Source: Adhaeribacter terrigena (GTDB lineage Bacteria; Bacteroidota; Bacteroidia; Cytophagales; Hymenobacteraceae). Taken from it: a stretch of DNA of 64,000 bases. Positions 21,794 through 60,884 of this stretch are shown piece by piece; the first letter of the stretch is position 1; each line of letters starts with the position of its first letter. The position numbers and the translations under genes are program-made. The notes beneath the pieces were generated by a model. That model was not told the origin of the DNA. It saw only the letters and a list, made by a program, of their open reading frames with translations, and made no database searches. The stretch is from positions 124,001-188,000 of the forward strand of contig NZ_JAEHFX010000008.1 in the NCBI RefSeq assembly GCF_016623615.1. The letters run 5' to 3'.

Positions 21794-21836
21794 GCGGGTT
21801 ACGCTTCAGAACATTCTTATCCGGAACCGGAATTAA

Positions 21837-21867
21837 AAAAACGCTATGGTTTTGGCTTAAAAAACTA
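21837..21867 (-). repeat. 30-bp dispersed motif overlapping the nuoD stop codon
   Basis: Minus strand: TAGTTTTTTAAGCC, AAAACCATAGCGTTTTTT; the TAG is the nuoD stop (21867-21865). Confidence 0.7.
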
Positions 21868-23076: not shown

Positions 23077-23080
23077 TTTT

Positions 23081-23224: not shown

Positions 23225-23767
23225 TCACCACCTTTCTCCTTTAAACCCATTATCCTCGTTATGCTTTTCGTAAGGCACTTTTATGTCGTGGTAATATTCG
23301 GGCCAGACGTAATCTTTGCGCAACGGGTGGCCTTGCCAGTTGGCGGCGCAAAGTATGCGGCGCATATCCGGGTGGCCGGAAAACTGAATGCCGATCAAAT
23401 CGAAAATTTCGCGTTCGTGCCAGTCGGCGCTGCGCCAGATATGGCTTACGGTTGGGATTTCCGGAAGCGGTTCGTTTTCTGTATTTCGTGGTACCTGTAC
23501 TTTCAGGCAGAAACTATGCTCAAACGGTATGGAATACAGGTTATAAACTACTTCCAGCGTGCCGGCTTCCGGACCATTATCAATTCCCGTCTGGCAGCTT
23601 AAAAAATCGAAATAAGTTTGTTCGTTGTCGTGCAGTTCGAGGCAAATTGCTGCAAGTTCTTCTTTCGGAATAAGCACATAAGGCATGAGTGGCTGCAGAT
23701 TCTCGGCAAGAATTACTTCCGGGCCAAATTTAGCAACGAGCAGGTTTTTAATTTCTTCGAAGGTCAA
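23225..23767 (-). CDS. nuoC: NADH-quinone oxidoreductase subunit C
   Basis: The 180-residue 30-kDa subunit of complex I. The family signature is HEREIFDLIGIQFSGHPDMRRIL (about residues 117-139), preceded by DFLSCQTGID and followed by the C-terminal HPLRKDY. Not fused with nuoD. It starts 12 bp after the stop of the DUF6794 gene. Confidence 0.95.
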   Translation of the reverse strand: MTFEEIKNLLVAKFGPEVILAENLQPLMPYVLIPKEELAAICLELHDNEQTYFDFLSCQTGIDNGPEAGTLEVVYNLYSIPFEHSFCLKVQVPRNTENEPLPEIPTVSHIWRSADWHEREIFDLIGIQFSGHPDMRRILCAANWQGHPLRKDYVWPEYYHDIKVPYEKHNEDNGFKGERW

Positions 23768-23779: not shown

Positions 23780-24520
23780 TTATTGGGCTTTTTTCCAGTT
23801 ATGGAAGCTCAGGTCAAAATTCATGATGCTGCCGGTCTGCAGTTTTTCATGGCCGTAATACACTTCACTAAGCTGGCAGATATCGGTTAATTTAATATAA
23901 AGCTTGTAGGTTTTGCCGTACTGATCTTTCTTTAAAACTACCCCGCTTAACTTGCACGACGGGTTTTCCCAACCGCTCTCCGGTTTTTCGGCCGGCGGGC
24001 TAAGCAGGATCTCCGTTTTTCCATCCGCGGTGGCGGCAATAAAAAAAGACATTTCTACGGTATCGGCCAGTTGAATGCTGTTGAAATTACGGGCTACGCG
24101 TTTCTCGTTTTCGGAATAATCATGCTCCAGAAATTCCCAGTATTCGCGGTAAAACCGGAACTGGCCTTCCAGGTCTATTTCTTTGCGGTTCAGGTTGCGG
24201 TGAAAGCTGCGCAGCACAATAGCCGACATGTCGTCGGGGTGGTAAATGCCCTGGGCTTTGAAATAATCGGCGAGCGGGCTGCCGGTCCACAAGCGCCAGT
24301 GATTGCGCATATCCAGGCCGGCAAAAAAATGCTGTTCGGCTATGGCTTTGTCTTCGGATTTATATTTGAAAACCATTTGCCGGTCTTCCGGCCAGGTAAA
24401 ACTTAAATGAAATATGGCTTCGTCTACGTTTTTGGGAATGTAATAACCACCAAATCCGGGCTCCTGCGCCTGCGCCAGAAACGGTAGTAAAAACACACAA
24501 AAAAGTAAAAGCCTTTGCAT
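23780..24520 (-). CDS. DUF6794 exported protein inside the nuo operon
   Basis: A 246-residue precursor with signal peptide (MQRLLLFCVFLLPFLAQA). The mature N-terminal half carries a block I associate with DUF6794: KNVDEAIFHLSFTWPEDRQM, then FKYKSEDKAIAEQHFFAGLD, RNHWRLW, and GIYHPDDMSAIVLRSFHRNL. The family has no known function. It starts 7 bp after nuoB and ends 12 bp before nuoC, so it must be cotranscribed with complex I. The mature protein would be periplasmic whereas NuoB and NuoC are cytoplasmic, so it is unlikely to be a subunit of the peripheral arm. An insertion by recombination or a helper role are both possible. Confidence 0.8.
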   Translation of the reverse strand: MQRLLLFCVFLLPFLAQAQEPGFGGYYIPKNVDEAIFHLSFTWPEDRQMVFKYKSEDKAIAEQHFFAGLDMRNHWRLWTGSPLADYFKAQGIYHPDDMSAIVLRSFHRNLNRKEIDLEGQFRFYREYWEFLEHDYSENEKRVARNFNSIQLADTVEMSFFIAATADGKTEILLSPPAEKPESGWENPSCKLSGVVLKKDQYGKTYKLYIKLTDICQLSEVYYGHEKLQTGSIMNFDLSFHNWKKAQ

Positions 24521-25113: not shown

Positions 25114-25138
25114 AGTTTTGGTTTAATGCTTTATTTTA

Positions 25139-25169
25139 CTTTTTCTACCCAAAAGGATAGCGTTTTTTT
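25139..25169 (+). repeat. 30-bp dispersed motif copy
   Basis: CTTTTTCTACCCAAAAGG, ATAGCGTTTTTTT; between nuoB and nuoA. Confidence 0.7.
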
Positions 25170-25746: not shown

Positions 25747-25760
25747 ATGATTCGGCGCGG

Positions 25761-25790
25761 AGTTTTGGGGCTGAAAAACATAGCGTTTTG
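25761..25790 (+). repeat. 30-bp dispersed motif copy
   Basis: AGTTTTGGGGCTGAAAAAC, ATAGCGTTTT; lies just upstream of the nuoA -7 box, in the divergent region. Confidence 0.7.
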
Positions 25791-27345: not shown

Positions 27346-28225
27346 GAGTTTTTTAGGTTGAAAGCATAGCGTTTTTTTCTTGTCATCCCGACTCTTACTG
27401 TCATACCGACGATAGAAGGGATCTATTTAAGCTTAATGGTAAGTTGGCTCTTGGGTTTTTATGCCTAAAAAGATACCGTTTTTATAGTTTGCTACGGCTT
27501 TTAATTCATCACTTTAGTTTTTCAATGAAGCTTTCTCCCTCAAGCCGGGTGGCTTCGTTTCTGCGTTCGCGGCTGCAACCCTTCCTGCCCTTGCGGGCTG
27601 CCTCGTTCCTCGGCACCGGAAGTCTTGGAGGCCGCTCGCACAGAAACTGGTGTCAGATTCCCTTCGTAGCTCGCTTCTTTTTAGTCTACTTTCTTCAGAT
27701 AGCGTGATTTTCATGTGACGCTGCGCTGGCGAAAGGCGGAAGATCAATTATGCGTAAAAGTTCACCTCCTTTTTAAGTCTCAGATCCCGGAGAATTTCGG
27801 GATAGGGGTTGGGGGCAATGCCGTCAACATAAGAGAATCCATAGAAAATTATTGGGTCATTCTGAGCCTGTCGAAGAAACTTACGCGGAATTACAAGGGA
27901 ATTCGAGCGAAGCAATGAATTCCTTGCAGGTTCGGTACGCGTTAGTTCCCTCGGCTGCTACGCAGGGTCCTTTCGACTCTCGTCTCAGGAATGCTCGGGA
28001 TGACCAAATAATTATTTAAGTTGACGATATTTGGGGTTGGGGTGGTTGTATTACATTCAGAAAATTCCGATTCAGAAAATTCCGATTCAGAAAAGAATCC
28101 TTAAATTCTTGAATCCTACAAATCCCAATTGGCTTCGCCGAACTACGTTTCAGACAAAAATCCTGTCCATACCATAAATCCTGAAAAACGTGTTCAGACT
28201 TTATTGTCGTCTGCTTTAGCTGACG
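27346..28225 (+). repeat. Composite repeat, copy B, with nested MITE
   Basis: Motif copy 27346-27378, GTCATCCCGACTCTTACTG block with AGGGATCTATTTAAGCT (27381-27437), second motif 27452-27485 ending TACCGTTTTTATAG, GC-rich core about 27530-27735, a MITE-like element at 27857-28005, and the tail with GTTTCAGACAAAAATCCTG and GTCTGCTTTAGCTGACG to about 28225. The gap 27335-28390 holds no gene I can support. Confidence 0.75.
27857..28005. repeat. 149-bp MITE-like element nested in copy B
   Basis: GTCATTCTGAGCCTGTCGAA at the left and GCTCGGGATGAC (27994-28005) at the right; inside GGAATTCGAGCGAAGCAATG and GGTTCGGTACGCGTTAGTTC. Confidence 0.75.
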
Positions 28226-28390: not shown

Positions 28391-29299
28391 ATGTCTTTAT
28401 TATTTAACGATTTTGCCAGCTGGCAGAAACATTGCGAAGAAACGAACCAACCGCTTTATCAGCCGGTTTTAGAATACGAAATTGAACAGAAAGGCCGTAC
28501 CGAAGAACTGATCTGGGAAACCATGGCGCATGCTTATGCGGTAATGCAGGATGCCGTGAAAACCGGACTTTCCGAAGACATGCGTTCGCGTTCGGGCATG
28601 GTGAATAATGGCGCTAAAAAAGTGGCTGCTTCGCCGGTTACTACGCTTTCGCCGGAATTTAAAATGCTGATCACGCGGGCACTGGGGGCCAAGGAAGTGA
28701 ATTCGTGCATGGGTCGCGTGGTAGCCGCGCCTACGGCCGGGGCTTCGGGCATTTTGCCGGGCATTTTAACCACATTGCAGGATCTGCATAAACTCGACGA
28801 CCGGAAAATTCACGAAGGCTTGCTTATTGCGGCGGGAATTGCCCTGATCATCGAAACTAATGCTTCGTTGGCGGGTGCGGTAGGCGGTTGTCAGGCCGAA
28901 ACGGGAAGTGCGGCGGCTATGGGTGCGGGCGCTATTGTGTATTGCTTAGGCGGCAGCATCGACCAGGTTTTTGCGGCCGTCGCCATTACCATTCAGTGTA
29001 TGCTGGGTTTGGTTTGCGATCCGGTGGCGGGTCTGGTAGAAGTGCCCTGCATTGTGCGCAACGCCAGTGCGGCGGCTATTGCTTATTCTTCGGCCCAGAT
29101 CGCCATTGCGGGCGTAAACCCCGTTATTCCGGTAGACCAGTGCGTGGCTGCCTTAGGCGAAGTGGGGCAGAGCATGGAAACCAAATACAAGGAAACGGCT
29201 TTGGGTGGCTTGGCTAATACCGCGAAAGCCCGCGAAATTGAAAAGCTGGTGCTGGTGCAGGATGTGGAAATTCTGCCCGACGAAGATAATGCCGACTAA
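28391..29299 (+). CDS. sdaAA: L-serine ammonia-lyase, iron-sulfur type, alpha subunit
   Basis: A 302-residue enzyme subunit that deaminates L-serine to pyruvate and ammonia with an oxygen-sensitive [4Fe-4S] cluster. Family landmarks: NSCMGRVVAAPTAGASGILP (about residues 103-122), GGCQAETGSAAAMGAGAIV, and LVCDPVAGLVEVPCIVRNA. Cysteines in these three segments are the expected cluster ligands. The beta subunit gene is not adjacent. Followed by a repeat, a motif copy and a terminator. The short AT-rich leader TTCATTCAGTCATTCACG belongs to the AATTC/CATTC repeat family. Confidence 0.93.
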   Translation: MSLLFNDFASWQKHCEETNQPLYQPVLEYEIEQKGRTEELIWETMAHAYAVMQDAVKTGLSEDMRSRSGMVNNGAKKVAASPVTTLSPEFKMLITRALGAKEVNSCMGRVVAAPTAGASGILPGILTTLQDLHKLDDRKIHEGLLIAAGIALIIETNASLAGAVGGCQAETGSAAAMGAGAIVYCLGGSIDQVFAAVAITIQCMLGLVCDPVAGLVEVPCIVRNASAAAIAYSSAQIAIAGVNPVIPVDQCVAALGEVGQSMETKYKETALGGLANTAKAREIEKLVLVQDVEILPDEDNAD

Positions 29300-29355
29300 A
29301 TTGTTAAATGGTTGAATTGCTAAGTTGTTGATTGATTTAAAGTTTATTGTTGATT

Positions 29356-29385
29356 GACTTTTTTTACTCATGCAGATACCGTTTT
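29356..29385 (+). repeat. 30-bp dispersed motif copy
   Basis: GACTTTTTTTACTCATGCAG, ATACCGTTTTA; just ahead of the terminator of sdaAA. Confidence 0.6.
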
Positions 29386-29395
29386 ACGTAAGCGA

Positions 29396-30150: not shown

Positions 30151-30181
30151 CAGTTTTGGAAAGAAAAAGCATACCGTTTTT
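30151..30181 (+). repeat. 30-bp dispersed motif copy
   Basis: CAGTTTTGGAAAGAAAAAGC, ATACCGTTTTT. Confidence 0.65.
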
Positions 30182-30858: not shown

Positions 30859-31053
30859 ATGAAAACGCAATTTGTCTGTTACACGTTGGCTGCGCTACTG
30901 GCTTTGCCGGCGCTGCCTTCCGAAGCTACCCCGGTTCCTGAAAATACTAAAACCGAACTGAAGGCCACCACTTTTATCGGGAAGAAAAAACCGAAAAAAG
31001 TGAAAAAGCAAAAAAGAAAACATATGTACCGTCCGGGTGCCCGGCAAAACTAG
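30859..31053 (+). CDS. Small basic exported protein
   Basis: A 64-residue precursor: signal peptide MKTQFVCYTLAALLALPALP followed by SEATPVPENTK and a strongly basic tail (GKKKPKKVKKQKRKHMYRPG). Same general design as the protein encoded 235 bp upstream. The TAG stop is immediately followed by a dispersed motif and a hairpin that can end transcription from both sides. No known family. Confidence 0.55.
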   Translation: MKTQFVCYTLAALLALPALPSEATPVPENTKTELKATTFIGKKKPKKVKKQKRKHMYRPGARQN

Positions 31054-31080
31054 TTTTTAACCCCAAAACCCTACCGTTTT
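31052..31080 (+). repeat. 30-bp dispersed motif starting at a stop codon
   Basis: AGTTTTTAACCCC, AAAACCCTACCGTTTT; the AG at its start belongs to the TAG stop at 31051-31053. Confidence 0.7.
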
Positions 31081-31100
31081 CTAGCGGCAGGGTTTTTTTA
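31064..31100. terminator. Bidirectional hairpin between convergent genes
   Basis: CAAAACCCT at about 31064-31072 pairs with AGGGTTTTTTT at about 31090-31100; the left arm is the motif core itself. Serves the small exported gene on the plus strand and the membrane protein gene on the minus strand. Confidence 0.6.
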
Positions 31101-31110
31101 TGGGGAAATT

Positions 31111-34324: not shown

Positions 34325-34356
34325 GAGTTTTTATGCCGAAAGCAATACCGTTTTTC
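34325..34356 (+). repeat. 30-bp dispersed motif copy
   Basis: GAGTTTTTATGCCGAAAGC, AATACCGTTTTTC; first of two tandem copies. Confidence 0.7.
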
Positions 34357-34360
34357 TTTA

Positions 34361-34390
34361 CAGTTTTTAGGGCTGAAAGGATAGCGTTTT
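34361..34390 (+). repeat. 30-bp dispersed motif copy
   Basis: CAGTTTTTAGGGCTGAAAGG, ATAGCGTTTT; second tandem copy, 5 bp after the first. Confidence 0.7.
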
Positions 34391-34443
34391 GTGATGGTTT
34401 ACGCCAATCTGGAGATTGGCTTTCCGCATAACGGAGTTCTTAA

Positions 34444-35202: not shown

Positions 35203-35235
35203 TACTTTTTAGGCCAAAATCCCTGTCGTTTTTAT
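35203..35235 (+). repeat. 30-bp dispersed motif copy
   Basis: TACTTTTTAGGCCAAAATC, CCTGTCGTTTTTAT; upstream of the MORN gene. Confidence 0.6.
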
Positions 35236-35241
35236 TAAAAA

Positions 35242-35305
35242 CAATTCAACAATTCAACAATTCAACAATTCAACAATTCAACCATTCAGCCATTCAACAA
35301 TTAAA
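35242..35305. repeat. 8-bp tandem repeat
   Basis: CAATTCAA repeated five times without error (about 35242-35281), grading into CATTCAGCCATTCAACAATT. Lies just after the M28 peptidase stop on the minus strand. Confidence 0.85.
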
Positions 35306-35307
35306 CT

Positions 35308-36972
35308 TTACTTCTTATTACTATCCACTTTAATCCGTTCGTCACGATTAGCGATTTCCCAGGCGGTGTGGAAAACGAGGCGCGTGATGGTTTCCATTTT
35401 ATCGAAGAGAATTTTTTCTACTTCGTCGCCGGGCTGGTGGTAATCTTCGTGCACGCCGTTGAAATAGAAAATTACCGGAATGTTGTTTTTGGCGAAATTG
35501 TAATGATCAGAACGGTAATAGAACTGGTTCGGGTCTTTTTCGTCGTTGTAAGTATAGTCGAGCTTCAGGTTGGTGTGTTTGGCGTTGGCCTCTTCGTTGA
35601 TGGCGTGCAGTTCGGAAGAAAGTTTGTCGGAACCTATCACGTAAATGTAGTTTTTATTGTCGGCGTATTTCTTGTCGAGTCTCCCGATCATGTCGATGTT
35701 GAGGTTGGCGACCGTGTTTGGCAGCGGGAAAACCGGGTTGTTGACGTAGTATTCCGAGCCCAGCAAACCTTTTTCTTCGGCAGTAACGGTCATAAACAAA
35801 ATGCTGCGCCGCGGGCCGGCACCCGCTTTTTTTGCTTCCTGAAACGCCTGCGCCAGTTCTAAGATCGCCGAAGTGCCGGAACCATCGTCGTCAGCCCCAT
35901 TGAAGATCTGGTCGCCTTTCAGGCTTGGGTCCATGCCTACGTGATCGTAATGCGCGGTAATTACCAATATCTCGTCTTTTTTATCGGTGCCTTCCACAAA
36001 GCCCAGCACGTTTTCGGTTGGTACCGGCGTGCGGGTTTTTTCGGCGGAAAGCATAGCGTTTTTAACCGGTTTAAATTTGGAAATTACCGGTTTGCCGGCT
36101 TTGCTCACCTGGTTTTTATAAGCCTGTAGCTTTTTATCGTTTGTTTGCAGCAACGCAAGGCCCACCGGTTGCGAAACGATGACTACCGGCGTTTGACTTC
36201 CCGGGTGTTTTTCGGCGGGAAAATCCAGACGCGGTTTTTCTAAACGGTGGCTTAAATAAGCAAGCTGTTTCTGAAATTGGGTCGCAGACTGGTCGGAAAT
36301 GATGATGAGGTTTTTGACGCCTTTTTCGCGGGCCAGCCGCAGTTTGCTGCGGTAATCGGCGTTCCAGGCGGAAGGTTTTTTGCTGCCCGAAACCAGGAAA
36401 TTGCCCTGCGCATCTTTGGGTTCGCCGTTGAGTACCAGCACGGTTTTGCCTTTCACGTCCAGGTTCTGGTAATCGGAATGTTTATCGGTTTCGATGCCGT
36501 AACCGGCAAAAACGAGGTCGAGCTGCTGGTTTTGTTCGGCTGGTTCGTCGCCGGGCAGATAAAAGTCTTTCAGGAATCCTAAATCGGTTTTGTCTACCCG
36601 TAAAGCGGCTTTTTCCCAGCGACTTTCTTCCAGCTCAAATGGCTGGTAATAGGGTTGAGGCAATGCAGCCGGGCTGGAAACGCCAATTTCGCGGAAGTGG
36701 CCGGCAATGTATTCGGCCGCCATTTTCTGTCCTTTTTTACCGGTTTCCCGGCCCTCCATTTCGTCGGAAGCCAGAATATGCAGGTGAACCGAAAGATCGG
36801 CGGCTGTAATGGATTGGGCAAACATTTCAGCGGTAAGCTTGGGCGCAACCAAAGGTTCGGGGGCCGGAACAGCCACGGTTTTGGTTTTTACTTTGCTTTT
36901 GGTTTTCTGAGCTTCGGCCGGAGACAAGGCAACGCCAGTGGCCAGCAAAAGTGCCAATATATTCTTTTTCAT
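35308..36972 (-). CDS. M28-family zinc aminopeptidase
   Basis: A 554-residue exported protease with signal peptide (MKKNILALLLATGVALSPAEA), a PA-type insert around residues 150-290 and the M28 catalytic domain from about 320. Metal ligands: H341 and D343 (HYDHVG), D361 (GADDDGSGTSA), E399 or E400 (TAEEKGLLGSEYY), D427 (NIDMIGRLD) and H490 (SDHYNF). Released N-terminal amino acids are the expected products; location periplasm or surface. Residues 304-313 (KNAMLSAEKT) are encoded by a copy of the dispersed motif on the opposite strand. Confidence 0.9.
   Translation of the reverse strand: MKKNILALLLATGVALSPAEAQKTKSKVKTKTVAVPAPEPLVAPKLTAEMFAQSITAADLSVHLHILASDEMEGRETGKKGQKMAAEYIAGHFREIGVSSPAALPQPYYQPFELEESRWEKAALRVDKTDLGFLKDFYLPGDEPAEQNQQLDLVFAGYGIETDKHSDYQNLDVKGKTVLVLNGEPKDAQGNFLVSGSKKPSAWNADYRSKLRLAREKGVKNLIIISDQSATQFQKQLAYLSHRLEKPRLDFPAEKHPGSQTPVVIVSQPVGLALLQTNDKKLQAYKNQVSKAGKPVISKFKPVKNAMLSAEKTRTPVPTENVLGFVEGTDKKDEILVITAHYDHVGMDPSLKGDQIFNGADDDGSGTSAILELAQAFQEAKKAGAGPRRSILFMTVTAEEKGLLGSEYYVNNPVFPLPNTVANLNIDMIGRLDKKYADNKNYIYVIGSDKLSSELHAINEEANAKHTNLKLDYTYNDEKDPNQFYYRSDHYNFAKNNIPVIFYFNGVHEDYHQPGDEVEKILFDKMETITRLVFHTAWEIANRDERIKVDSNKK
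36034..36063 (+). repeat. 30-bp dispersed motif inside a coding region
   Basis: GGTTTTTTCGGCGGAAAGC, ATAGCGTTTTT; antisense to the M28 peptidase, where it encodes KNAMLSAEKT at the junction of two domains. Confidence 0.65.
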
Positions 36973-37046
36973 ATAGTCGAAATTACCCGCTTTCCCGGAA
37001 ATGAATTCGTTGATCTTTAAAAGGTAAAACCTTAACGCCCGAATCG

Positions 37047-37077
37047 GTTTTTTAGCCTGAAACCCTGGCGTTTTTAT
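37047..37077 (+). repeat. 30-bp dispersed motif copy
   Basis: GGTTTTTTAGCCTGAAACC, CTGGCGTTTTT; ends 7 bp before the ispF stop codon, i.e. in its 3' flank. Confidence 0.65.
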
Positions 37078-37560: not shown

Positions 37561-37652
37561 AGTGTTGGCCCCACCCCGGCCCGGCCCTGATTCAGGGGAG
37601 GGGGTTTTTGGGTAGGTATTTTTTATGGTTATTTGATTCTTTTTGTTTCAGT

Positions 37653-37684
37653 AGTTTTTCTGGCTTAAAGCATAGCGTTCTTTA
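37653..37684 (+). repeat. 30-bp dispersed motif copy
   Basis: AGTTTTTCTGGCTTAAAGC, ATAGCGTTCTTTA. Confidence 0.65.
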
Positions 37685-37762: not shown

Positions 37763-37793
37763 AAAAACGGTAGGGTTTAAGCGCTAAAAAGTC
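37763..37793 (-). repeat. 30-bp dispersed motif copy (minus)
   Basis: Minus strand GACTTTTTAGCGCTTAAA, CCCTACCGTTTTT. Confidence 0.7.
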
Positions 37794-39569: not shown

Positions 39570-39600
39570 GACTTTTTCGCCCGAAAAACCTACCGTTTTA
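39570..39600 (+). repeat. 30-bp dispersed motif copy
   Basis: GACTTTTTCGCCCGAAAAA, CCTACCGTTTTA; upstream of the M16 gene on its other strand. Confidence 0.7.
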
Positions 39601-42206: not shown

Positions 42207-42686
42207 ATGTTGATAATGCTGCAGATTTCCCGGAAAAACGGTAGGCTTTTCGCCCGTAAAAGTGCTTTATTGCTTTTATTGGCCATGCTTACCGTTTTTG
42301 CGGGCGCCTGCAGTAAGAAAATGCCTTGCCCAACACCAGTAAAAGCGGAAAAGCAGGCTAAAAACAAAAAGAAGAAAGCACCTAAAAAACAAAATGCGGC
42401 AAGTGAGGGCGACGGCACCGAGACAGCAGACGCCTCCGCGGCCCTGTCCGATGACGATGCCACCGCCGATGAAAGCGGCGAGCCTGCGAAACCAAAAATA
42501 ACCGGCTCCAAAAACAAGTATTCGAAGAACGGTCTGTTGCAGAAGAAAAAGTATAAAAGGCTGCGCAGCAACCCGGCCCGTAAACGAAGCCGCCACAATA
42601 GCGGTATATTGAGTATCTTCTCGGGAAAGAAGAAATCGGCCAGTAAGCCGAAGCAGCGAACGAATGTTGAACCCGCAGATTATTAA
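42207..42686 (+). CDS. Small Lys-rich lipoprotein
   Basis: A 159-residue precursor from ATG 42207. The signal has a basic n-region (SRKNGRLFARK) and lipobox AGAC, so the mature protein begins at CSKKMPC. The rest is low-complexity: acidic Asp/Ala/Glu stretch (EGDGTETADASAALSDDDAT) then a basic tail (KKKYKRLRSNPARKRSR). An in-frame TTG at 42171 overlaps the E1 stop and is not favoured. The dispersed motif (42234-42263) encodes part of the n-region. Unknown function; 3 bp before the next gene. Confidence 0.65.
   Translation: MLIMLQISRKNGRLFARKSALLLLLAMLTVFAGACSKKMPCPTPVKAEKQAKNKKKKAPKKQNAASEGDGTETADASAALSDDDATADESGEPAKPKITGSKNKYSKNGLLQKKKYKRLRSNPARKRSRHNSGILSIFSGKKKSASKPKQRTNVEPADY
42234..42263 (-). 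repeat. 30-bp dispersed motif inside a coding region
   Basis: Minus strand CACTTTTACGGGCGAAAAG, CCTACCGTTTTTC; in the sense of the lipoprotein gene read as KNGRLFARK. Confidence 0.65.
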
Positions 42687-43037: not shown

Positions 43038-43382
43038 ATGATGCAGTGGGAAAAGCTTAATGAAGTGGGACAGATAGAGGCGCTGGCCGAAGAATCGAAA
43101 CAGCAGCCGGTGGTAATATTTAAGCACAGCACCAGTTGCTCCATCAGCGCTACGGCTAAAACCCGCCTGGAACGCCAGTGGGCTGAAAACGGATTCGGGA
43201 ACGTGAAAACCTATTACCTGGATCTGCTGGCGCATCGCCCGGTTTCAAACGAAATTGCCGATTTTTTCCAGGTCCGCCACGAGTCGCCGCAGTTGCTCCT
43301 TATTCAGGACGGCATGTGTACGTACCATGGTTCGCACCTGGGCATTAAGTTAGACGAAGTAAAAAAACGGGTTTCCGCCTAA
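43038..43382 (+). CDS. ytxJ: YtxJ-like bacillithiol-system protein
   Basis: A 114-residue monothiol thioredoxin-fold protein. The family motif appears as FKHSTSCSISATAK with the single Cys at C34; in most members the following residue is Pro, here it is Ser. YtxJ proteins are linked to bacillithiol redox chemistry, which many Bacteroidota possess; that role is family knowledge. Third gene of a short operon of exported proteins, with a long inverted repeat after its stop. Confidence 0.85.
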   Translation: MMQWEKLNEVGQIEALAEESKQQPVVIFKHSTSCSISATAKTRLERQWAENGFGNVKTYYLDLLAHRPVSNEIADFFQVRHESPQLLLIQDGMCTYHGSHLGIKLDEVKKRVSA

Positions 43383-43408
43383 TAGAAAATAACGCCGCCG
43401 GCGAAATG

Positions 43409-43475
43409 AGAACGGTAGGTATTTCAGCTTAAAAGTCTCGCATGAGTTTTTAAGCTGAAATACCTACCGTTTTTG
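43409..43475. repeat. Two dispersed motifs in inverted pair, hairpin between convergent genes
   Basis: A minus copy (43409-43437) and a plus copy (43444-43475) share AACGGTAGGTATTTCAGCTT and its complement. The arms pair over about 27 bases with a six- to seven-base loop. Located between ytxJ (plus) and osmC (minus), so it could terminate both transcripts. Confidence 0.85.
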
Positions 43476-43501: not shown

Positions 43502-43909
43502 TTAATAGATAAATTTAACCGTTTGCTTAATTTCCGGGTGCAGACTCAAGGCTACCGGGCAGGTTTTGGCGGCATTTTCCAGCAGTGCTTTTTCTTTATC
43601 GGAGTACGTGGCGCCGGCCGGCAAATGAAAGTCGATCACGATTTCGCCAATGCGGCGCGGCTCCGGAACCATAATTTTGGTGATCTCCATTTTGGTGCCT
43701 TCCAGCGTAATATTATTGCGTTCGGCCACAATGCCCATAATCGTCATCATGCAGCTACCCAACGAGGCGCAGGTAAGATCCGAAGGCGAAAAAGCTTCGC
43801 CGCGGCCGTTATTATCTAAGGGCGCATCGGTAATAATCTGGTTGCCTGAAGCGTTATGAGTAGCCTGGGTACGTAAATTGCCGGTATAAACAGAAGTGAT
43901 TGTGCTCAT
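43502..43909 (-). CDS. OsmC-family peroxide-detoxifying protein
   Basis: A 135-residue homologue of OsmC/Ohr, which reduces organic hydroperoxides with two cysteines. The two conserved cysteines are C53 (LGSCMMTIMG) and C117 (AKTCPVALSLHPEI). FSPSDLTCASLGSC is the usual first motif. Cytoplasmic. Convergent with ytxJ and divergent from the gene at 43979. Confidence 0.92.
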   Translation of the reverse strand: MSTITSVYTGNLRTQATHNASGNQIITDAPLDNNGRGEAFSPSDLTCASLGSCMMTIMGIVAERNNITLEGTKMEITKIMVPEPRRIGEIVIDFHLPAGATYSDKEKALLENAAKTCPVALSLHPEIKQTVKFIY

Positions 43910-44780: not shown

Positions 44781-45674
44781 ATGGATGAATTTGTAAGGTT
44801 GCCGGTTATACAACCGGTAGTAGAACAGCCCAAAAACCGCAAGCCCGACTGGCTGCGCGTAAAGCTGCCCGTAGGGAAGGAATACGCCAACGTCCGCAAA
44901 ATAGTAGACGAAAATAAACTGCATACCATCTGCGAAAGCGGAAACTGTCCGAACATGGGCGAATGCTGGGGCGCCGGCACGGCCACGTTCATGATATTAG
45001 GCAACGTTTGCACGCGCAGCTGCTCGTTCTGCGCCGTAGCCACCGGCCGGCCAAATGAATATGATACCGACGAACCCCGCCGCGTAGCCGAAGCCATCAA
45101 AACCATGGGCGTAAAACACGCCGTGATCACTTCGGTAAACCGCGATGAACTGAAAGACCGTGGCGCGGCTATCTGGCACGAAACCGTAGTGCTTATCAAA
45201 CAACTTTCGCCGCAAACTACCATTGAAACCTTAATTCCGGACGTGAAAGCGAACTGGGAAGCCCTGGAAGTAATGATCTCGGCCGGCCAGGAAGTAGTTT
45301 CGCACAACATGGAAACCGTAGGCAGTTTGTACCGCATGGTGCGTCCGCAGGCTAAATACGACCGCAGCCTGGAGCAGATCAGAAGAACCAAGGAATACGG
45401 CCAACGCACCAAAACCGGCATTATGCTGGGCCTGGGCGAAAAGAAAGAAGAGGTTTATCAGGCCATGGACGATCTGGCAGCCAACGGACTGGATATTTTA
45501 ACGCTGGGTCAGTATTTGCAGCCAACCAAACGCCATATCGAAGTTGCCGAATTCATCCATCCGGATCTGTTTGCGCATTACCGGGAAGAAGGTTTGCGCC
45601 GCGGCCTGAAATACGTAGAATCGGGCCCGCTGGTACGTTCTTCCTACCACGCCGAACGCCACGTGCACGTATAA
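44781..45674 (+). CDS. lipA: Lipoyl synthase
   Basis: A 297-residue radical SAM enzyme that inserts two sulfurs into octanoyl groups to make lipoyl cofactor. The radical SAM motif is C77-x3-C81-x2-C84 ([12 protein letters not shown]). Auxiliary cluster ligands are C51, C56 and C62 ([14 protein letters not shown]) with the C-terminal Ser in VRSSYHAE. The product serves GcvP-dependent glycine cleavage, SucA-type and branched-chain dehydrogenases, all in this window. Followed by motif and terminator. Confidence 0.96.
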
Positions 45675-45704
45675 AAAACGCTATGCTTTTAAGCTGAAAA
45701 AGTC
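45673..45704 (-). repeat. 30-bp dispersed motif copy (minus)
   Basis: Minus strand GACTTTTTCAGCTTAAAAGC, ATAGCGTTTTTT; overlaps the lipA stop codon. Confidence 0.7.
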
Positions 45705-45736: not shown

Positions 45737-45748
45737 CTGCAAATCGGG

Positions 45749-45777
45749 AAATGCTATGCTTTTTACTTTAAAAACTG
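45749..45777 (-). repeat. 30-bp dispersed motif copy (minus)
   Basis: Minus strand AGTTTTTAAAGTAAAAAGC, ATAGCATTTC; ends just before the DUF4136 gene stop. Confidence 0.6.
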
Positions 45778-47983: not shown

Positions 47984-48014
47984 AAAGGCCCGGAGCGTTG
48001 CTTCGGGTTTTTTT
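47984..48014 (+). terminator. Terminator after the lectin-like gene
   Basis: GCCCGGAGC, short loop, GCTTCGGGT and a T-run. Confidence 0.75.
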
Positions 48015-48035
48015 ACGTTAAAGCTATAGCGTTTT
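48006..48035 (+). repeat. 30-bp dispersed motif copy
   Basis: GTTTTTTTACGTTAAAGC, TATAGCGTTTT; overlaps the T-run of the terminator. Confidence 0.65.
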
Positions 48036-48068
48036 GGATCACAGATTTAAGGGAGTTGGGATTTCGCA

Positions 48069-48580
48069 GAGTTTTTATGGCTGAAAGTATAGCGTTTATT
48101 TTGTCATCCCGACGATAGGAGGGATCTATTTAAGCTAATAAGTTAGTTTGCAATTTGAGTTTTTGAGCCTGAAAGGATACCGTTTTCATAGCTTACTTTC
48201 GATCTTAACTAATAACTTTTTACTTTCATAGTTTACTTTCACCCTCAAGCCGGGCGGCTTCGTTTCTGCGTTCGCGGCTGCAACCCTTCCTGCCCTTGCG
48301 GGCTGCCTGTGGCACCGGAAGTCTTGGAGGCCGCTCGCACAGAAACTGGTATCAGTTCCCTTCGTAGTGAACTTCTTTTTAGTTTAGTTTCCCGGTAACG
48401 TGATCTTCAGGATACGCTGCGCTGGCGATATGCGTAAAAAAGTCCTCGACTGTTTTTAGGGGAGGATTTAGGTGGGGCAGTTCTGTAAATTCTGATTCAG
48501 ACAAATTATAAAAATCAAATAAACCATAGTTCAGACAAAATCCTTGAATCTTGAAAATCCTGTTTCAGACAAAAAAGGGG
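48069..48580 (+). repeat. Composite repeat, copy C
   Basis: Motif copy 48069-48098, GTCATCCCGACGATAGG with AGGGATCTATTTAAGCT (48101-48136), motif copy 48157-48190, GC-rich core about 48234-48432 and a shortened tail (GTTTCAGACAAAAAAGG). The gap 47934-48720 has no gene. Confidence 0.75.
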
Positions 48581-48604: not shown

Positions 48605-48634
48605 AAAAACGCTATGCTTTGGGTTGCAAAAAAT
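48605..48634 (-). repeat. 30-bp dispersed motif copy (minus)
   Basis: Minus strand GATTTTTTGCAACCCAAAGC, ATAGCGTTTTTC; in the 3' flank of gcvP. Confidence 0.6.
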
Positions 48635-48648
48635 CAGGCCTATAAATA

Positions 48649-51698: not shown

Positions 51699-51730
51699 TA
51701 AAAACGGTACTGATTTCCAAGGCAAAAGTA
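51699..51730 (-). repeat. 30-bp dispersed motif overlapping the gcvP promoter
   Basis: Minus strand TACTTTTGCCTTGGAAATC, AGTACCGTTTTTA; about 57 bp upstream of the gcvP start. Confidence 0.5.
51723..51730 (-). promoter_or_regulatory. gcvP: Possible -7 box of gcvP
   Basis: TACTTTTG on the minus strand, 80 bp before the ATG. It is at the 5' end of a dispersed motif. No clear -33 TTG. Confidence 0.35.
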
Positions 51731-52203
51731 CGGGTAATTATTTTTATTTAATAATGGGCTTCCGGAATTTCGGGAAAGTTGATTTTTGTCATTTTTGGAG
51801 GAGAAGGTTTGGGGTTCTCAGGAGTTTTTTCAGCCTGAAAGCATAGCATTATTGCGTCATCCCGAGCGTTAGCCAAGCGTACTTATAAGGCCGCGTTTTT
51901 GACTTTTTAACCTAAAAAGCATACCGTTTTCATAGTTGCCTTCAAATCTTAATTCATAATTCTCAATTCTTGATTAAACTTTCTCCCTCAAGCCGGGCGG
52001 CTTCGTTTAGCTACGCTGAATCTCCGATTTCTGCGTTCGCGGCTGCACCCTTTCTTTGCTTACGCAATTTTGCTGCGCAAAAGTCGGAAAGGGCGGAGGC
52101 CGCTCTCACAGGAAATGTTGTCAGTTTCACTGCGTAGCTGGCTTTTTATCAGATAAACTGTTTCAGGAAACGTTGCGCTGACGATATCGTGAAAACAACC
52201 ACC

Positions 52204-52265: not shown

Positions 52266-52296
52266 GAAAATGCTATGCTTTCAGACTCAAAAAGTC
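52266..52296 (-). repeat. 30-bp dispersed motif copy (minus)
   Basis: Minus strand GACTTTTTGAGTCTGAAAGC, ATAGCATTTTC; between two C-rich hairpins. Confidence 0.65.
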
Positions 52297-53866: not shown

Positions 53867-53901
53867 GACTTTTTAATGGCAAAACCATATCGTTTTTATA
53901 G
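53867..53901 (+). repeat. 30-bp dispersed motif copy
   Basis: GACTTTTTAATGGCAAAACC, ATATCGTTTTTATAG. Confidence 0.7.
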
Positions 53902-54679: not shown

Positions 54680-54683
54680 ACTG

Positions 54684-54712
54684 ACTTTTTCCCCTCAAAA
54701 CCCTATCGTTTT
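54684..54712 (+). repeat. 30-bp dispersed motif copy
   Basis: GACTTTTTCCCCTCAAAACC, CTATCGTTTT; between convergent genes. Confidence 0.7.
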
Positions 54713-54717
54713 CCACC

Positions 54718-56652
54718 TCAACCACCCACCAATTCCACCCAGCCTTTTTTCATTTTTTGTTCGTTCCGGAAGTTGGCGTATTCCAGTAAATAGAAATAAA
54801 CCCCGTCGGCAGTTTTTTGGCCGTTTACCCTACCGTTCCAGCCTTTATTAATTTCGGAAGTTTCGTAAAGAAGCTGGCCCCAGCGGTTGTAGATTTTCAG
54901 TTTTCCGGAACCAACGCCGCACATTTCCATGGGCGCAAAGGTTTCGTTACGGCCGTCGTTATTGGGCGTGAAAATGTTGGGCAGCAGCAGTTTTTCGTGA
55001 TCGCCAATTTTCCCGCTGAAACGTTTGGTGCAGGTTTGGTAAGTTACATCTACGTGGTAGATTCCGGGTTTAGTGGCGCGGTAAATGGCGTTGGTGGAGC
55101 CGTCGTGCCAGCGGTAAACGGCTCCCGGCAAGGTGGCGTTTATCAGCACTTCGGAGTTCTGGCAAAGCGCCGTGTCATGGGTTAAGGTTGGTTGCGGAAA
55201 CGCGATTTGGGTAACCATTACGGTATCGGAAACGGTTTGTGCGCCGCAGTTGGTGGTAGCCCGCAGCCAGTATTTTCCGGATTGGTTTACCGCAATGGTA
55301 GCCGTGGTGTCGCCGGTGCTCCACAAATAAGAATCGAGCACCAAACCCGACCGGTCGCGTAAAGCCAGCGGCGAATTGGCGCATAAAATACTGTCAGCAT
55401 GAATGTTGATTCTGGCTGGCGCAAAACTGCTGCAATGCGTGGAAGTTATGGCCGGAATATTCTTTACCGGAAACGATTTGTTCACCACGCTAAACGTGTG
55501 CGAACTTACACTGGAGCTCGGCGAAAAAGGCGGGTTTACCGGTTCGGTGGTGATGTTGATGGCAAAAGTGGTGTCGCAGCCGGTGTGAAAAAGAGGGTCG
55601 GTTTTGGCAAAGAATAGTTTGGAGCCCGCCGCGTTGGCAATGGTGAGGCCGGTTAAAAGGGTATGGTTTTCGTCGGAAAAACCCACGTGGTAACCTTGGA
55701 GAATAACCCCGGCTTTACCGTTATCGAGCGTACTTTGCCTTACAATGTTCAGGTCTTTGTCGAACTCGATGATGGTAGCGTAACTAAAGCCGAAGGTATT
55801 GGTTTTATTGAAAACGGCCGCGAAATTTCCGTTGCTTTTTTTGTACAGCTGCGGCGGATTGCCGGTAAATTCCGTAACCTTCCGGCCGCCTAGTTGCAGT
55901 TGCCCCGTTTTGCTGATCTTGTAAAACGTTACTGTGTTCAGAGCGCTGTTAAGCCCGGTGAAAATATAGCCGTCGCTTACTTCCACGGGTGCCAAATAAC
56001 TAGTAGTATTCCCGAAACCGCTGGCCCACTCCAGGTTGCCGGTTTGGTCGATTTTAAACAGCGTGCTGCCAATGCGCGCCAGAATTCCGCCGTCGGAAGT
56101 TACAATGGCCCCGCCCCAGATCGGTCCGAAACTGTAGAACTTGGTCCAGAGAAAATTGCCGTTCGCATCAAGTTTGGTTATGGTGTTGAAAAAGCCCTGC
56201 TGGTTTAGGGGCGAAGCATTGGCCAGCACCACAAAATTGCCGTTGCTGTCTTCGCTGATGGTGTATGGGTACTGAATATAATCCGGGTCTTCCAACGATC
56301 TGCTCCAGATTATGGCGCCGTTCGCATCTAATAACGTAACCACCGAATGGTAAAGATTGGCGCTTGGAATGCGGTTGAGGAGCGCAAAACCGCCGTTTCG
56401 GGTTTTAATAGCGCTGCCGGCATAAAAACCGATCGGAATTTTATATTGCTTCGCCCAATCCGGATTGCCGCAGCTGTTGAATTTGTAAAGTTTCAGGCTG
56501 TCTAAGGAAAAGACCGCAATTCCCTGGTCGTTGGTCTGAAAAATCCGCGTGTTCCTGCCAAAATGCATCCCGTCAATCGTTTTCACGAAAGCGCTCTGGC
56601 TCATCGAAACCAGCGGAAAAAGCAACAGGAAAACAAGCAGCAGTTTTTTCAT
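54718..56652 (-). CDS. Gliding-motility-type C-terminal domain protein (T9SS type B)
   Basis: A 644-residue exported protein from ATG 56652 (MKKLLLVFLLLFPLVSMSQS). The first 400 residues contain repeated short strands (DANGAIIWSRSLEDPDY, DANGNFLWTKFYS, DQTGNLEWASGF) as in the T9SS protein at 6472. Then comes an Ig-like stretch (PLALRDRSGLVLDSYLWSTG) and the type B C-terminal domain: NIFTPNNDGRNETFAP, LKIYNRWGQLLYE and DGVYFYLLEY. The upstream ATG at 56694 would precede the signal peptide and is rejected. A surface adhesin-like role is plausible. Confidence 0.85.
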   Translation of the reverse strand: MKKLLLVFLLLFPLVSMSQSAFVKTIDGMHFGRNTRIFQTNDQGIAVFSLDSLKLYKFNSCGNPDWAKQYKIPIGFYAGSAIKTRNGGFALLNRIPSANLYHSVVTLLDANGAIIWSRSLEDPDYIQYPYTISEDSNGNFVVLANASPLNQQGFFNTITKLDANGNFLWTKFYSFGPIWGGAIVTSDGGILARIGSTLFKIDQTGNLEWASGFGNTTSYLAPVEVSDGYIFTGLNSALNTVTFYKISKTGQLQLGGRKVTEFTGNPPQLYKKSNGNFAAVFNKTNTFGFSYATIIEFDKDLNIVRQSTLDNGKAGVILQGYHVGFSDENHTLLTGLTIANAAGSKLFFAKTDPLFHTGCDTTFAINITTEPVNPPFSPSSSVSSHTFSVVNKSFPVKNIPAITSTHCSSFAPARINIHADSILCANSPLALRDRSGLVLDSYLWSTGDTTATIAVNQSGKYWLRATTNCGAQTVSDTVMVTQIAFPQPTLTHDTALCQNSEVLINATLPGAVYRWHDGSTNAIYRATKPGIYHVDVTYQTCTKRFSGKIGDHEKLLLPNIFTPNNDGRNETFAPMEMCGVGSGKLKIYNRWGQLLYETSEINKGWNGRVNGQKTADGVYFYLLEYANFRNEQKMKKGWVELVGG

Positions 56653-56672
56653 AGAAGGCAATAGCGTTTTAA
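56643..56672 (+). repeat. 30-bp dispersed motif across a start codon
   Basis: GTTTTTTCATAGAAGGCAAT then AGCGTTTT; the CAT is the complement of the ATG at 56652. Confidence 0.5.
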
Positions 56673-56786: not shown

Positions 56787-56817
56787 GACTTTTTAAGTGC
56801 TAAACCCTATCGTTTTT
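56787..56817 (+). repeat. 30-bp dispersed motif copy
   Basis: GACTTTTTAAGTGCTAAACC, CTATCGTTTTT. Confidence 0.7.
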
Positions 56818-56954: not shown

Positions 56955-57392
56955 ATGAAAAAGCAAAAAACAATGCTGCTGGCCGCCAAAGGATTTATCC
57001 TGCTTTCGGCTTTGAGTTTATTATCGGTAAGTGTCATGGCGTTCTTCAGTCCGCAGGCGGTTATGGATCTGGTGCAGGTAAAATTAGAAAACACCGATGC
57101 TTACAGTTCTATTCGCGGCGTTTACGGCGGGGTAGGGATGACGCTGGTAATTTCATTGATCTATCTCATGCTGAAAGAACCGCGCAAAGGCCTGGCGTTT
57201 TTAATGCTGCTCTGGGGTTTTTACGCTTTCTCGCGGACCATTACTATTTTCGCGGAAGGCAGTTTAGGCGCTTTCGGAACGCAATGGCTGGTAATTGAAG
57301 CTGCCTTTTTCCTGATCGCCGGTACTTTGTTCATGCTAACTGGCAAAAACGAAGCCTCTAAAACCGATTTGCAAGTAAAGCTCAGCGTTTAA
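56955..57392 (+). CDS. DUF4345 membrane protein
   Basis: A 145-residue protein with four membrane helices (about residues 12-30, 53-70, 77-95 and 108-127) and the DUF4345 pattern: SPQAVMDLVQVKLEN, SSIRGVYGGVGMTLV and GLAFLMLLWGFYAFSRTITI. Function unknown. Monocistronic, ends at a bidirectional terminator. Confidence 0.8.
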   Translation: MKKQKTMLLAAKGFILLSALSLLSVSVMAFFSPQAVMDLVQVKLENTDAYSSIRGVYGGVGMTLVISLIYLMLKEPRKGLAFLMLLWGFYAFSRTITIFAEGSLGAFGTQWLVIEAAFFLIAGTLFMLTGKNEASKTDLQVKLSV

Positions 57393-57407
57393 ATGAACTG
57401 CTATTTT

Positions 57408-57447
57408 AATACAAAAGCATAGCTATTAGGCTGTGCTTTTGTATTTT
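57408..57447. terminator. Bidirectional terminator
   Basis: AATACAAAAGCATAGC, loop, GCTGTGCTTTTGTATTTT: a 16-base stem with A- and T-runs on each side. It separates DUF4345 from cbpM and contains AAAAGCATAGC, as in the motif. Confidence 0.8.
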
Positions 57448-57853: not shown

Positions 57854-57884
57854 CAAAACGCTATGCTTTTACAGGAAAAAAGTC
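57854..57884 (-). repeat. 30-bp dispersed motif copy (minus)
   Basis: Minus strand GACTTTTTTCCTGTAAAAGC, ATAGCGTTTT; between cbpA and cbpM. Confidence 0.7.
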
Positions 57885-57914: not shown

Positions 57915-58844
57915 TCAAGCTCGTAGTTCAGCCAGTTGCCGGAAGAGCTCTTTTTCTTTATCGGTGAGTTTTTCGGGCAAATGCAGTACCGTTTTTATGT
58001 AGAGGTCGCCGTGCTGGCCGGGGTGGTTATACACCGGAAACCCCTTGCCTTTTAAGCGCAGCATTTTGCCGTTCTGGGTTTCGGGCTGAATTTTAATTCT
58101 GATCTTGCCGCCGAGCGTATCCACTACTTCTTCGCCGCCCAAAGCTGCTTTATACACGCTAACCGGGGCATCCACATAAAGATCGTTGCCTTTGCGGGTG
58201 TACTTCGGGTCTGGGGCAATGCGGAAGGTAATGTACAGATCGCCGTTTTCGGCACCGTTCATGCCCGGGCCGCCCTGGCCTTTCAGCCGGATGGTTTGCC
58301 CGTCGGCCACGCCTGGCTTGATGTTGATGCGCAGGTTTCTGCCGTTCACGGTCAGGGTTTTACTGCCGCCGCGGTACGCTTCCTCCAAAGGCATCTGCAA
58401 TTCGGCGGTGAAATCCTGGCCTTTAAAAGCCATGGAGCTCCGGCGGCCGCCGCGAGCTTGTCCGCCACCCATACCGCCAAAGATCGAGCTGAAGAAGTCG
58501 GAGAAATCGGTGCCTCCAAAATCACCTTCGAAATGCGTGTAACGGCCGCCGCCTGGTCCGCCCGCGCCTGCGTACTGGCTCCAGTCGAAACCTCCCGGAC
58601 CGCCGCCGGCTTGTTCGTAACGCTTCCAGTCGGCGCCCAGCTGGTCGTATTTCTTGCGTTTTTCCTCGTCGCTTAAAACCTCGTAGGCTTCCGAAACGGC
58701 TTTGAATTTTTCCTCCGCTTCCTTGTTATTCGGGTTTACATCCGGGTGGTATTTGCGCGCCAGCTTCTTATACGATTTCCTGATCTCGTCTTTCGTAGCG
58801 GTTTTAGAAACTTCCAGAATCTTGTAATAGTCTTTGTACTCCAC
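57915..58844 (-). CDS. cbpA: DnaJ-like co-chaperone CbpA
   Basis: A 309-residue class B J protein. The J domain (1-70) has HPD at 33-35; a Gly/Phe-rich linker (about 75-130, [20 protein letters not shown]) follows, then the two C-terminal substrate-binding domains, without a zinc finger. It stimulates DnaK ATPase. Paired with cbpM downstream. Confidence 0.93.
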
Positions 58845-58956: not shown

Positions 58957-58988
58957 GAAAAACGATATGTTTTCAAGCTTAAAAAGTC
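58957..58988 (-). repeat. 30-bp dispersed motif copy (minus)
   Basis: Minus strand GACTTTTTAAGCTTGAAAAC, ATATCGTTTTTC; followed by a degenerate second fragment (ATATAGTTTTAAACTAAAAA, 58990-59015). Confidence 0.65.
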
Positions 58989-59476: not shown

Positions 59477-59795
59477 GTTTACAATTTGAAGATTTTGAAA
59501 TTTGAATATTTTAAAATGATTTTCCGATACTGCTTTCTAAAAATTAAAGTTATCCCTGAAAACCAATTCCATGATAAAGGTATAAACGGATTTTGCCAAT
59601 CGGAAACAGGAGCCAATTATTTTATCTTCAGAATTTCTTAAACCGGTGCATTTGCAAATCTTTAAATTTTCGAATCTTCAAATCGATAAAAAACCCCTTC
59701 GCCTTTCACCCGTAGAAACAGTACTTTTTTAGCCGCAAACCCTACCGTTTTTAAACCCAAAACCGCGGCATAGCTTCTTCATACAACCTAAAACT
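59477..59795. repeat. AT-rich repeat stretch without genes
   Basis: GAAGATTTTGAAATTTGAAT near 59485 and GCAAATCTTTAAATTTTCGA near 59653 belong to the TTTGAAAATTTGG family; a motif copy lies at 59723-59753. No gene is supported. Confidence 0.55.
59723..59753 (+). repeat. 30-bp dispersed motif copy
   Basis: TACTTTTTTAGCCGCAAACC, CTACCGTTTTTA; 43 bp before the ATG at 59796. Confidence 0.7.
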
Positions 59796-60043: not shown

Positions 60044-60075
60044 CAAAAAACGCTAGGGTTTCAGGCTGAAAAACT
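60044..60075 (-). repeat. 30-bp dispersed motif copy (minus)
   Basis: Minus strand CAGTTTTTCAGCCTGAAACC, CTAGCGTTTTTT; between the small membrane protein and the PRC gene. Confidence 0.7.
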
Positions 60076-60138
60076 GCTTAAGAGGCATCAGAAAAAAATC
60101 GAATAATACGAATCCCGAACATACGAAAAATCGAAACC

Positions 60139-60783: not shown

Positions 60784-60813
60784 GGGTTTTTTAGTCTTAA
60801 ACCCTACCGTTTT
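60784..60813 (+). repeat. 30-bp dispersed motif copy
   Basis: GGGTTTTTTAGTCTTAAACC, CTACCGTTTT; 6 bp after the PRC gene stop. Confidence 0.7.
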
Positions 60814-60884
60814 CTCACTTCAAAATATTTTCGGAAGTTTTTCTGAATTGCTTTTTAAGAGGTCGTTTGAACCCGGAAGTTTAC

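Follow-up and report, generated by a model that had tools for sequence, protein, structure and literature searches.

A dispersed 31-nt motif of Adhaeribacter terrigena as a candidate DNA uptake sequence, and one copy of it in a probable bidirectional terminator

The genome of Adhaeribacter terrigena (4.43 Mb in 24 contigs) is strewn with copies of a 31-nt motif which, judged from genome comparison, we regard as a candidate for a DNA uptake sequence among the Bacteroidota, outside the two families known to have them; we give this reading a probability of about 0.6. Its counts and density, its fixed spacing and its occurrence on both strands and in genes as well as spacers, together with substitution-type change, a looser version in the sister species and a plan of a core plus two A/T tracts, make up the signature that an uptake sequence leaves in a genome. 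One copy of the motif forms an arm of a long hairpin in the stretch of DNA analysed here (the window: 64,000 nucleotides, positions 124001-188000 of contig C23), and this hairpin is most likely a bidirectional intrinsic terminator between the convergent genes brxC/ytxJ and osmC. Taken alone, the hairpin is ordinary.

The hairpin occupies positions 43408-43474 of the window. By sequence and fold, it contains 24 consecutive Watson-Crick pairs, from A43411-T43471 to A43434-T43448, flanked by G-T wobbles (43435/43447, 43410/43472, and 43408/43474) and an A-T pair (43409/43473), and its 3' side finishes with a T-tract (T43470-43474). Its MFE of -48.4 kcal/mol compares with -19.3 ± 3.3 kcal/mol for 200 dinucleotide shuffles (z = -8.8), none of which was as stable, so that the near-perfect hairpin between convergent genes claimed by the original prediction is borne out. 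The prediction had further described its arms as a minus and a plus copy of the motif, which holds for one arm only. The right arm (43444-43474, plus strand), ending in the T-tract, is a good copy with a score of 37.6 on a weight matrix whose maximum is 43.4, whereas the left arm with its loop side (43408-43439, minus strand) scores 3.5 in its best register. Because its spacer is one T shorter and CGTTC replaces CGTTT, the left arm is a mirror image of the plus arm and not a second good copy. Among the 272 intergenic copies sampled in 464 kb, the one at 43444-43474 has the highest self-complementarity to its own flanks (24, with the next at 16), and it is unusual that the two arms are identical even through the variable positions of the motif. 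Presumably, the hairpin arose through inverted duplication of one good copy, or through selection for a stem acting on it.

As in an intrinsic terminator, this stable stem-loop with its T-tract stands at a gene end. It sits between the stops of the converging brxC/ytxJ-type bacilliredoxin gene (43038-43382, plus strand; PF11009) and the osmC-like gene (43502-43909, minus strand; PF02566), and the stem begins 25 nt past the brxC/ytxJ stop codon. Transcripts of both strands would form a stem at least 24 bp long, with the plus-strand transcript ending in T5 and the minus-strand transcript in a weaker T tract. To compare the spacer among relatives, nine osmC loci were used, one per genome (L245-L253), with four weaker, paralogue-like OsmC matches (L254-L257) excluded. 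A convergent bacilliredoxin gene lies beside osmC, within the stretch compared, in seven of the nine, A. terrigena included, and six of these seven genomes (A. terrigena, its sister species G001, and G007, G004, G009, and G005) possess a stable spacer hairpin, the sequences of which are all unrelated; in G002, the remaining one, the spacer measures 41 nt and has weak structure only. Since the hairpin keeps its place but not its letters in relatives, it looks like a bidirectional terminator. It has the long stem and the T-tract in common with the bidirectional intrinsic terminators of convergent genes, besides the same-place hairpins in relatives, and differs from ordinary ones in that one arm is a copy of the dispersed motif. 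The end of osmC in G001 is overlapped by a motif copy (score 23.6), which lies outside the strong hairpin there. Searches of the window yielded no Rfam family at gathering score and no tRNA, and between 30000 and 48500 neither the promoter-like sites (21 found, 21.0 expected) nor the terminator-like sites (39 found, 30.3 expected) were informative.

Written as RSTTTT-N14-TANCGTTTT, the motif has 2164 exact matches in the A. terrigena genome (1098 on the plus and 1066 on the minus strand), compared with 0 + 0 for the pattern read backwards. Like those of an uptake sequence, copies thus number in the hundreds to thousands, genome-wide and far above chance. With the spacer one base longer (15 bases), only 27 matches are left, hence the spacing is fixed. 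The aligned exact matches read A-S-TTTT-T, two free bases, G-C-Y, one free base, A-AAA, S-S-M, TA-S-CG-TTTT-T, and on the other strand the motif becomes AAAACGSTA-N3-TTT-N7-AAAAAST, in which two A/T tracts, spaced about 11 nt from centre to centre, come after a 9-nt core. Of 396 sampled copies, 260 have AAA as their central tract and 46 have TTT, which indicates that an A/T tract is kept and not a word. Columns show little coupling beyond the first two (A-C/A-G vs G-G). Beside the motif, information amounts to at most 0.30 bit in the adjoining columns and 0.12 bit beyond, so that the repeat unit does not extend past the motif, and a blind gapped-word search of the genome ranked pieces of the motif first. 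Weak extra A/T-rich columns (0.05-0.12 bit) were also seen about 11 nt outside the motif ends, in phase with the inner tracts; they were stronger in the set obtained by iterating the matrix on A. terrigena, a loosened set (794 vs 148 in the control) that was used for this remark only.

At a matrix score of at least 16, we counted 333 copies in 400 kb, compared with 1 in the reversed sequence, and 63 in the window, compared with 0 in the reversed window. At the same score, the sampled 464 kb contain 396 copies, or about one per 1.2 kb, of which 272 (69%) are intergenic and 124 lie within genes as called by a simple script, not a standard annotator. Density (score at least 12) is 3.4 per kb in spacers vs 0.37 per kb in genes, yet even in genes, copies far outnumber those of the reversed-sequence control (1 match in total at a score of at least 16). 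Among spacers, those between converging genes have the highest density (4.1 per kb) and those between diverging genes the lowest (2.5 per kb). Exact matches within genes of contig C17 are divided into 44 sense and 41 antisense, and 400 kb of this contig carry 155 copies on the plus and 178 on the minus strand, with 39/41, 39/44, 36/55, and 41/38 in successive 100-kb bins, one of the four (36/55) being uneven. As would be anticipated for an uptake sequence, the motif occupies genes as well as spacers, and it shows no strand bias in the whole genome (1098/1066) or in C17 (155/178). The longest copy-free stretch, C17:179949-191670, extends over 11.7 kb, where uniform placement gives a 95th percentile of 10.3 kb; it comprises a run of eight called genes, the first frame with a haem-type CxxCH by eye, at a normal G+C of 0.44-0.48.

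Within the window, copies on the plus strand (scores in brackets) are located at 194-224 (37), 6411-6441 (35), 7971-8001 (37), 10054-10084 (34), 10158-10188 (36), 23159-23189 (26), 25137-25167 (37), 25760-25790 (35), 27346-27376 (39), 27453-27483 (36), 29356-29386 (23), 30151-30181 (31), 34325-34355 (35), 34361-34391 (38), 35203-35233 (26), 37045-37075 (28), 37652-37682 (29), 39570-39600 (37), 48006-48036 (20), 48069-48099 (30), 48157-48187 (38), 51901-51931 (38), 53867-53897 (34), 54683-54713 (35), 56641-56671 (21), 56787-56817 (34), 59722-59752 (38), and 60784-60814 (35), with coding copies at 8854-8884 (18), 11802-11832 (33), 36033-36063 (36), 54810-54840 (22), and 57966-57996 (30). Those on the minus strand lie at 271-301 (22), 2516-2546 (35), 5364-5394 (30), 8640-8670 (30), 18635-18665 (36), 21450-21480 (17), 21764-21794 (38), 21837-21867 (39), 24477-24507 (21), 37763-37793 (39), 42234-42264 (38), 45747-45777 (24), 48605-48635 (25), 51700-51730 (25), 52266-52296 (28), 57854-57884 (35), 58958-58988 (35), and 60046-60076 (40), and coding copies at 541-571 (23), 9832-9862 (27), 15745-15775 (27), 18337-18367 (33), 23520-23550 (19), 55654-55684 (26), and 63561-63591 (29). 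To these are added the hairpin arm described above and the copies at 14925-14965, 31051-31081, and 45674-45704, which are treated below with transcript ends. Longer repeats of the GTCATCCCGACGATAGGAGGGATCTATTTAAGCT kind, which resemble one another to about 60-90%, are present in the window at 10080-10220, 11147-11330, 27375-27705, 48068-48395, and 51817-52173, and some of them carry motif copies inside or at their edge. Arrays with a period of 8 bp (TAACCATT / CAACAATT) occur, in either orientation, at 3056-3169, 23072-23232, 29289-29347, and 35239-35314.

By its lipoyl synthase (LipA), which is closest to that of an Adhaeribacter MAG (88% identical) and next to those of Hymenobacter and Pontibacter, A. 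terrigena is placed in the Hymenobacteraceae. How copies change can be seen from G001, which with A. terrigena makes up the genus among the genomes examined. Of the sampled A. terrigena copies, 37 lie in genes that have an at least 50% identical counterpart in 1.19 Mb of G001, and 35 of these copies align ungapped, with a median of 7 differences in 31 bases; 8 of these 35 still score at least 16 in G001. In 53 syntenic spacers, the median length in A. terrigena minus that in G001 is -12 nt for those with one copy (n = 21) and -8 nt for 25 without a copy. Because the counterparts are ungapped and the spacers are not longer, copies appear to come and go by base substitution (the differences are unpolarised), and thus the motif, like an uptake sequence, changes by point substitution instead of insertion. 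The corresponding G001 spacer contains a copy in 8 of the 28 syntenic spacers that have one in A. terrigena, and in 2 of the 25 that have none. G001 possesses a looser version of the motif: a relaxed pattern has 593 matches vs 12 in the control, and T-tract spacings of 12, 13, and 14 give 140, 194, and 131 matches in 1.19 Mb, compared with 15 for a spacing of 15 (longer T runs are counted more than once here). One-off cores such as TACTG (46), TACCA (33), and TACCC (26) together with others outnumber TASCG (65). Matches to the exact pattern are intergenic in 14 of 32 cases in G001, a smaller sample, vs 204 of 297 in A. terrigena. A blind gapped-word search in G001 ranked other repeats at the top and not the motif. 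A matrix iterated on G001 drifted to low complexity (4903 matches, 3599 in the control) and was replaced by fixed patterns.

Beyond the genus, the pattern had 0-6 matches in 57 other relatives and likewise in 389 other genomes from the order, and the relaxed pattern remained at control level in 202 other genomes of the family, the three sets overlapping. In 1.44 Mb around 80 LipA loci of other species, 2 matches were found vs 0 in the control, and a gapped-word scan of 50 of these loci in six mixed groups revealed nothing with the plan of the motif; its best words, mostly G+C-rich, reached z values of up to 30 in Hymenobacter and 21 in Saprospiraceae vs 47 for 200 kb of A. terrigena. Among the genomes searched, the motif is therefore lineage-restricted, as are uptake sequences, and exists in A. 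terrigena and, as a looser dialect, in G001.

With respect to competence, A. terrigena encodes ComEC (C17:45637-46446, 218.7 bits), the presence of which is not discriminating, as it was found in 28 of 29 genomes. For PF00437, which we take to be the ATPase family including the pilus motors of the two known uptake systems, A. terrigena has only a sub-threshold match (19.5 bits, cut-off 24.9), and in this regard it departs from the known uptake systems with their type IV pilus machine. If the motif is an uptake sequence, its receptor in A. terrigena would consequently lie outside the standard pilus, unless the assembly lacks the gene. G001 contains a cluster (C7, L273:5777-13294) downstream of an RHS-repeat gene. 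It encodes a GspE/PilB-type ATPase and a secretin, a pilin-like protein, a protein resembling leader peptidases at 22.2 bits (below cut-off), and four more that match nothing in Pfam. Its pilin-like protein matches PF07963 and PF16732 ComP_DUS (30.0 bits, cut-off 27.3); we rejected the latter match as a sign of uptake-sequence binding, since the pilin-like frames of two motif-free genomes also match PF16732, at 23.3 and 21.2 bits (below cut-off), so that it is no evidence. In Riemerella anatipestifer, ComEC, DprA, ComF, and RecA as well as four proteins without homology to known machines are described as essential for transformation (PMC8459023), and hence a type IV pilus may not be defining in Bacteroidota. 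As a trace of the Riemerella machine we looked for DUF5689, which is part of a protein that transformation requires there; it was not found in A. terrigena and is present in 13 of 39 genomes. A 308-aa frame with three helix-hairpin-helix matches (C24:192829-193452) recalls a protein essential in Riemerella; such frames occur in 19 of 19 genomes with matches, are common in the family and prove nothing. According to PMC3630211 and PMC7811141, uptake sequences belong to two families, the Pasteurellaceae and the Neisseriaceae, and our searches of the open-licence literature in PubMed Central found no Bacteroidota uptake sequence beyond the candidate k-mers tabulated in PMC7965970.

We propose that the competence system would include a surface receptor with a preference for DNA bearing the motif, and that recombination of the DNA taken up would spread the motif base by base, in genes and spacers, wherever it is tolerated. 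Copies would settle most easily just past gene ends, occasionally joining a terminator. Several findings speak against uptake: A. terrigena has no PF00437 match above the cut-off, while G001, whose motif is looser, has the pilus-type cluster; few copies are found at shared spacers (8 of 28); DUF5689 is absent; the blind search in G001 was negative; and one bin of C17 is uneven (36/55). In addition, the strong intergenic bias (3.4 vs 0.37 per kb) would also be expected of a binding site. This leads to the first alternative, namely that the motif is bound by an abundant chromosome-organising or regulatory protein and its copies are under selection. Tracts of T, A, and T in phase, surrounding a TA step, would suit a bending protein. 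This alternative also draws on the tightness of the 31-nt motif, whose spacing is fixed and whose tracts lie about 11 nt from each other, on its enrichment between genes, and on its confinement to one genus. However, 124 of the 396 sampled copies lie in genes, where a regulatory role is not obvious, there is no preference for gene orientation and little for strand, and few copies were kept at the same spacer of the sister species (8 of 28). We know of no case in which thousands of such long protein sites are found in one genus, and consider a protein site unlikely.

A second alternative would see the motif primarily as an element of transcript ends, with the hairpin at 43408 displaying its function. 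The original prediction had linked the motif to transcript ends, and one part of this stands: at a score of at least 16 in 464 kb, the first 100 nt after gene ends contain 170 copies in 27.4 kb (6.2 per kb), about twofold the density in the 100 nt before gene starts (92 copies in 29.0 kb, 3.2 per kb), a copy near two genes being counted for both. The data do not favour the proposal that copies pair as a general terminator device. Near gene ends (up to 100 nt away), neither orientation is preferred (87 same, 83 opposite), and adjacent copies 31-100 nt apart are inverted no more often than direct (17 vs 29), so that the other inverted pairs for which the prediction called showed no excess in the 464 kb sampled. 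Between the members of the 28 inverted pairs within 110 nt, 3-13 of 15 variable columns agree, on average 7.3 (6.8 in the 18 pairs free of overlap), where random pairs give 6.4 ± 2.3. All 10 cases in which adjacent copies overlap in 464 kb are inverted, with 7 arranged head to head and 3 arranged tail to tail. The former (for instance at C17:12182-12225) share the middle of AAAACGNTANCGTTTT and the latter the T-box half, as at 14925-14965 of the window, where a minus copy (14925-14955) and a plus copy (14935-14965) form a hairpin of -14.5 kcal/mol ending in a T run.

Individual copies do take part in terminator-like structures. The motif at 31064 was foreseen to make up half of a hairpin, and indeed the core of the plus-strand copy at 31051-31081 (score 39) does so (-29.7 kcal/mol for 31030-31110), while the T box of the minus-strand copy at 45674-45704 (score 41) serves as U-tract of the hairpin AAAAGTCCTTCC...GGAAGGACTTTT. 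For 57408, the predicted hairpin is there (-18.5 kcal/mol, 57380-57440), but it holds AAAAGCATAGC without the CGTTT part, and no copy was called. A hairpin using the T box of the motif as U-tract accompanies 29 of 272 intergenic copies vs 63 of 800 sampled other intergenic T-tracts, the stem finder stopping at 15 pairs, which is why the hairpin at 43408 is not among them; a hairpin ending in the motif core was found for 5 of 272, four of which represent two overlapping pairs. Complementarity between copies and their flanks exceeds expectation modestly (29 of 272 vs 15.0 at a score of at least 10, 11 vs 4.3 at 12 or more). In the whole genome, 20 tail-to-tail pairs have at most 30 nt between their T boxes, and by eye 10 of them enclose a terminator-like hairpin with the two T boxes as A and U tracts; the hairpin at 43408 is missing here because its left arm is off-specification. 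Thus, besides the absent orientation preference and the lack of any excess of inverted over direct pairs, both a hairpin rate close to that of other intergenic T-tracts and the 124 of 396 sampled copies within genes argue against a transcript-end element, which we judge improbable in spite of the doubled density after gene ends and the copies in or beside terminator-like hairpins. Co-option into terminators likely happens for a small minority of copies and does not explain the motif.

More improbable still is a mark for recombination, segregation, or modification of the Chi, KOPS, or HIP1 kind: a genome-wide spread over genes and spacers would suit it, but strand skew is little in 400 kb (155 plus, 178 minus), and the motif is far longer than Chi, KOPS, and HIP1, which are short marks. 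Spread by insertion of a short mobile or MITE-like repeat is barely credible, despite some copies within longer intergenic repeats (10053, 27345, and 48068), as the flanks share almost no information and no sequence beyond the motif, 35 of 37 coding cases are ungapped, spacers are not lengthened, and no insertion at empty sites was seen.

Returning to the uptake sequence as the preferred explanation, we suggest, tentatively, that DNA uptake specificity could have arisen here for a third time and independently, with the design of the Haemophilus uptake signal sequence (USS) but unrelated letters and, in A. terrigena, a receptor that is no part of a type IV pilus. If so, the shared design would reflect a physical need for bending DNA and pulling it through an outer-membrane pore. 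A motif that behaves in this way in the genomes of another phylum would make it possible to test molecular drive by a biased receptor as well as the core-plus-A/T-tract architecture as a mechanical requirement, and the motif would provide a handle on the DNA receptor used in Bacteroidota competence.

The original prediction was apt in pointing to a likeness with uptake sequences, and three systems invite comparison. Riemerella columbina is, like A. terrigena, a member of the Bacteroidota, and prefers its own DNA in competition (PMC7965970). Only A/T-rich k-mers are listed there as candidates, none of which resembles our motif. With the DNA uptake sequences (DUS) of Neisseriaceae, the motif shares thousands of copies, dialects, an intergenic preference, and the presence of some copies in terminators, and its overlapping pairs resemble the overlapping dyad pairs reported for the uptake sequences of S. 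muelleri (PMC3630211). Unlike the motif, which is gapped, DUS is a continuous short word, and its inverted pairs occur in high numbers (PMC3630211), about 10% of copies (PMC1939737), whereas here they are not commoner than direct ones. The USS of Pasteurellaceae differs in that its core is AAGTGCGGT and not AAAACGSTA, in belonging to an established uptake system, our motif being a candidate, and with respect to the phylum, Bacteroidota here, and the pilus ATPase, of which none was found in A. terrigena. In the 1.83-Mb genome of H. influenzae, about one USS core is present per 1.2 kb. Its 1,465 core copies (PMC7811141) lie in genes and spacers around the chromosome without orientation bias, 35% of them outside reading frames (PMC1939737) vs 69% intergenic here. 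Up to 32 nt long, the Haemophilus USS joins two discontinuous, A/T-rich regions to a 9-nt core (PMC12616744), and the A/T tracts are thought to help DNA kinking (PMC7811141). The A. terrigena motif is built alike: a core with two A/T tracts on one side, about 31 nt in length, at a similar density and in two lineage types.
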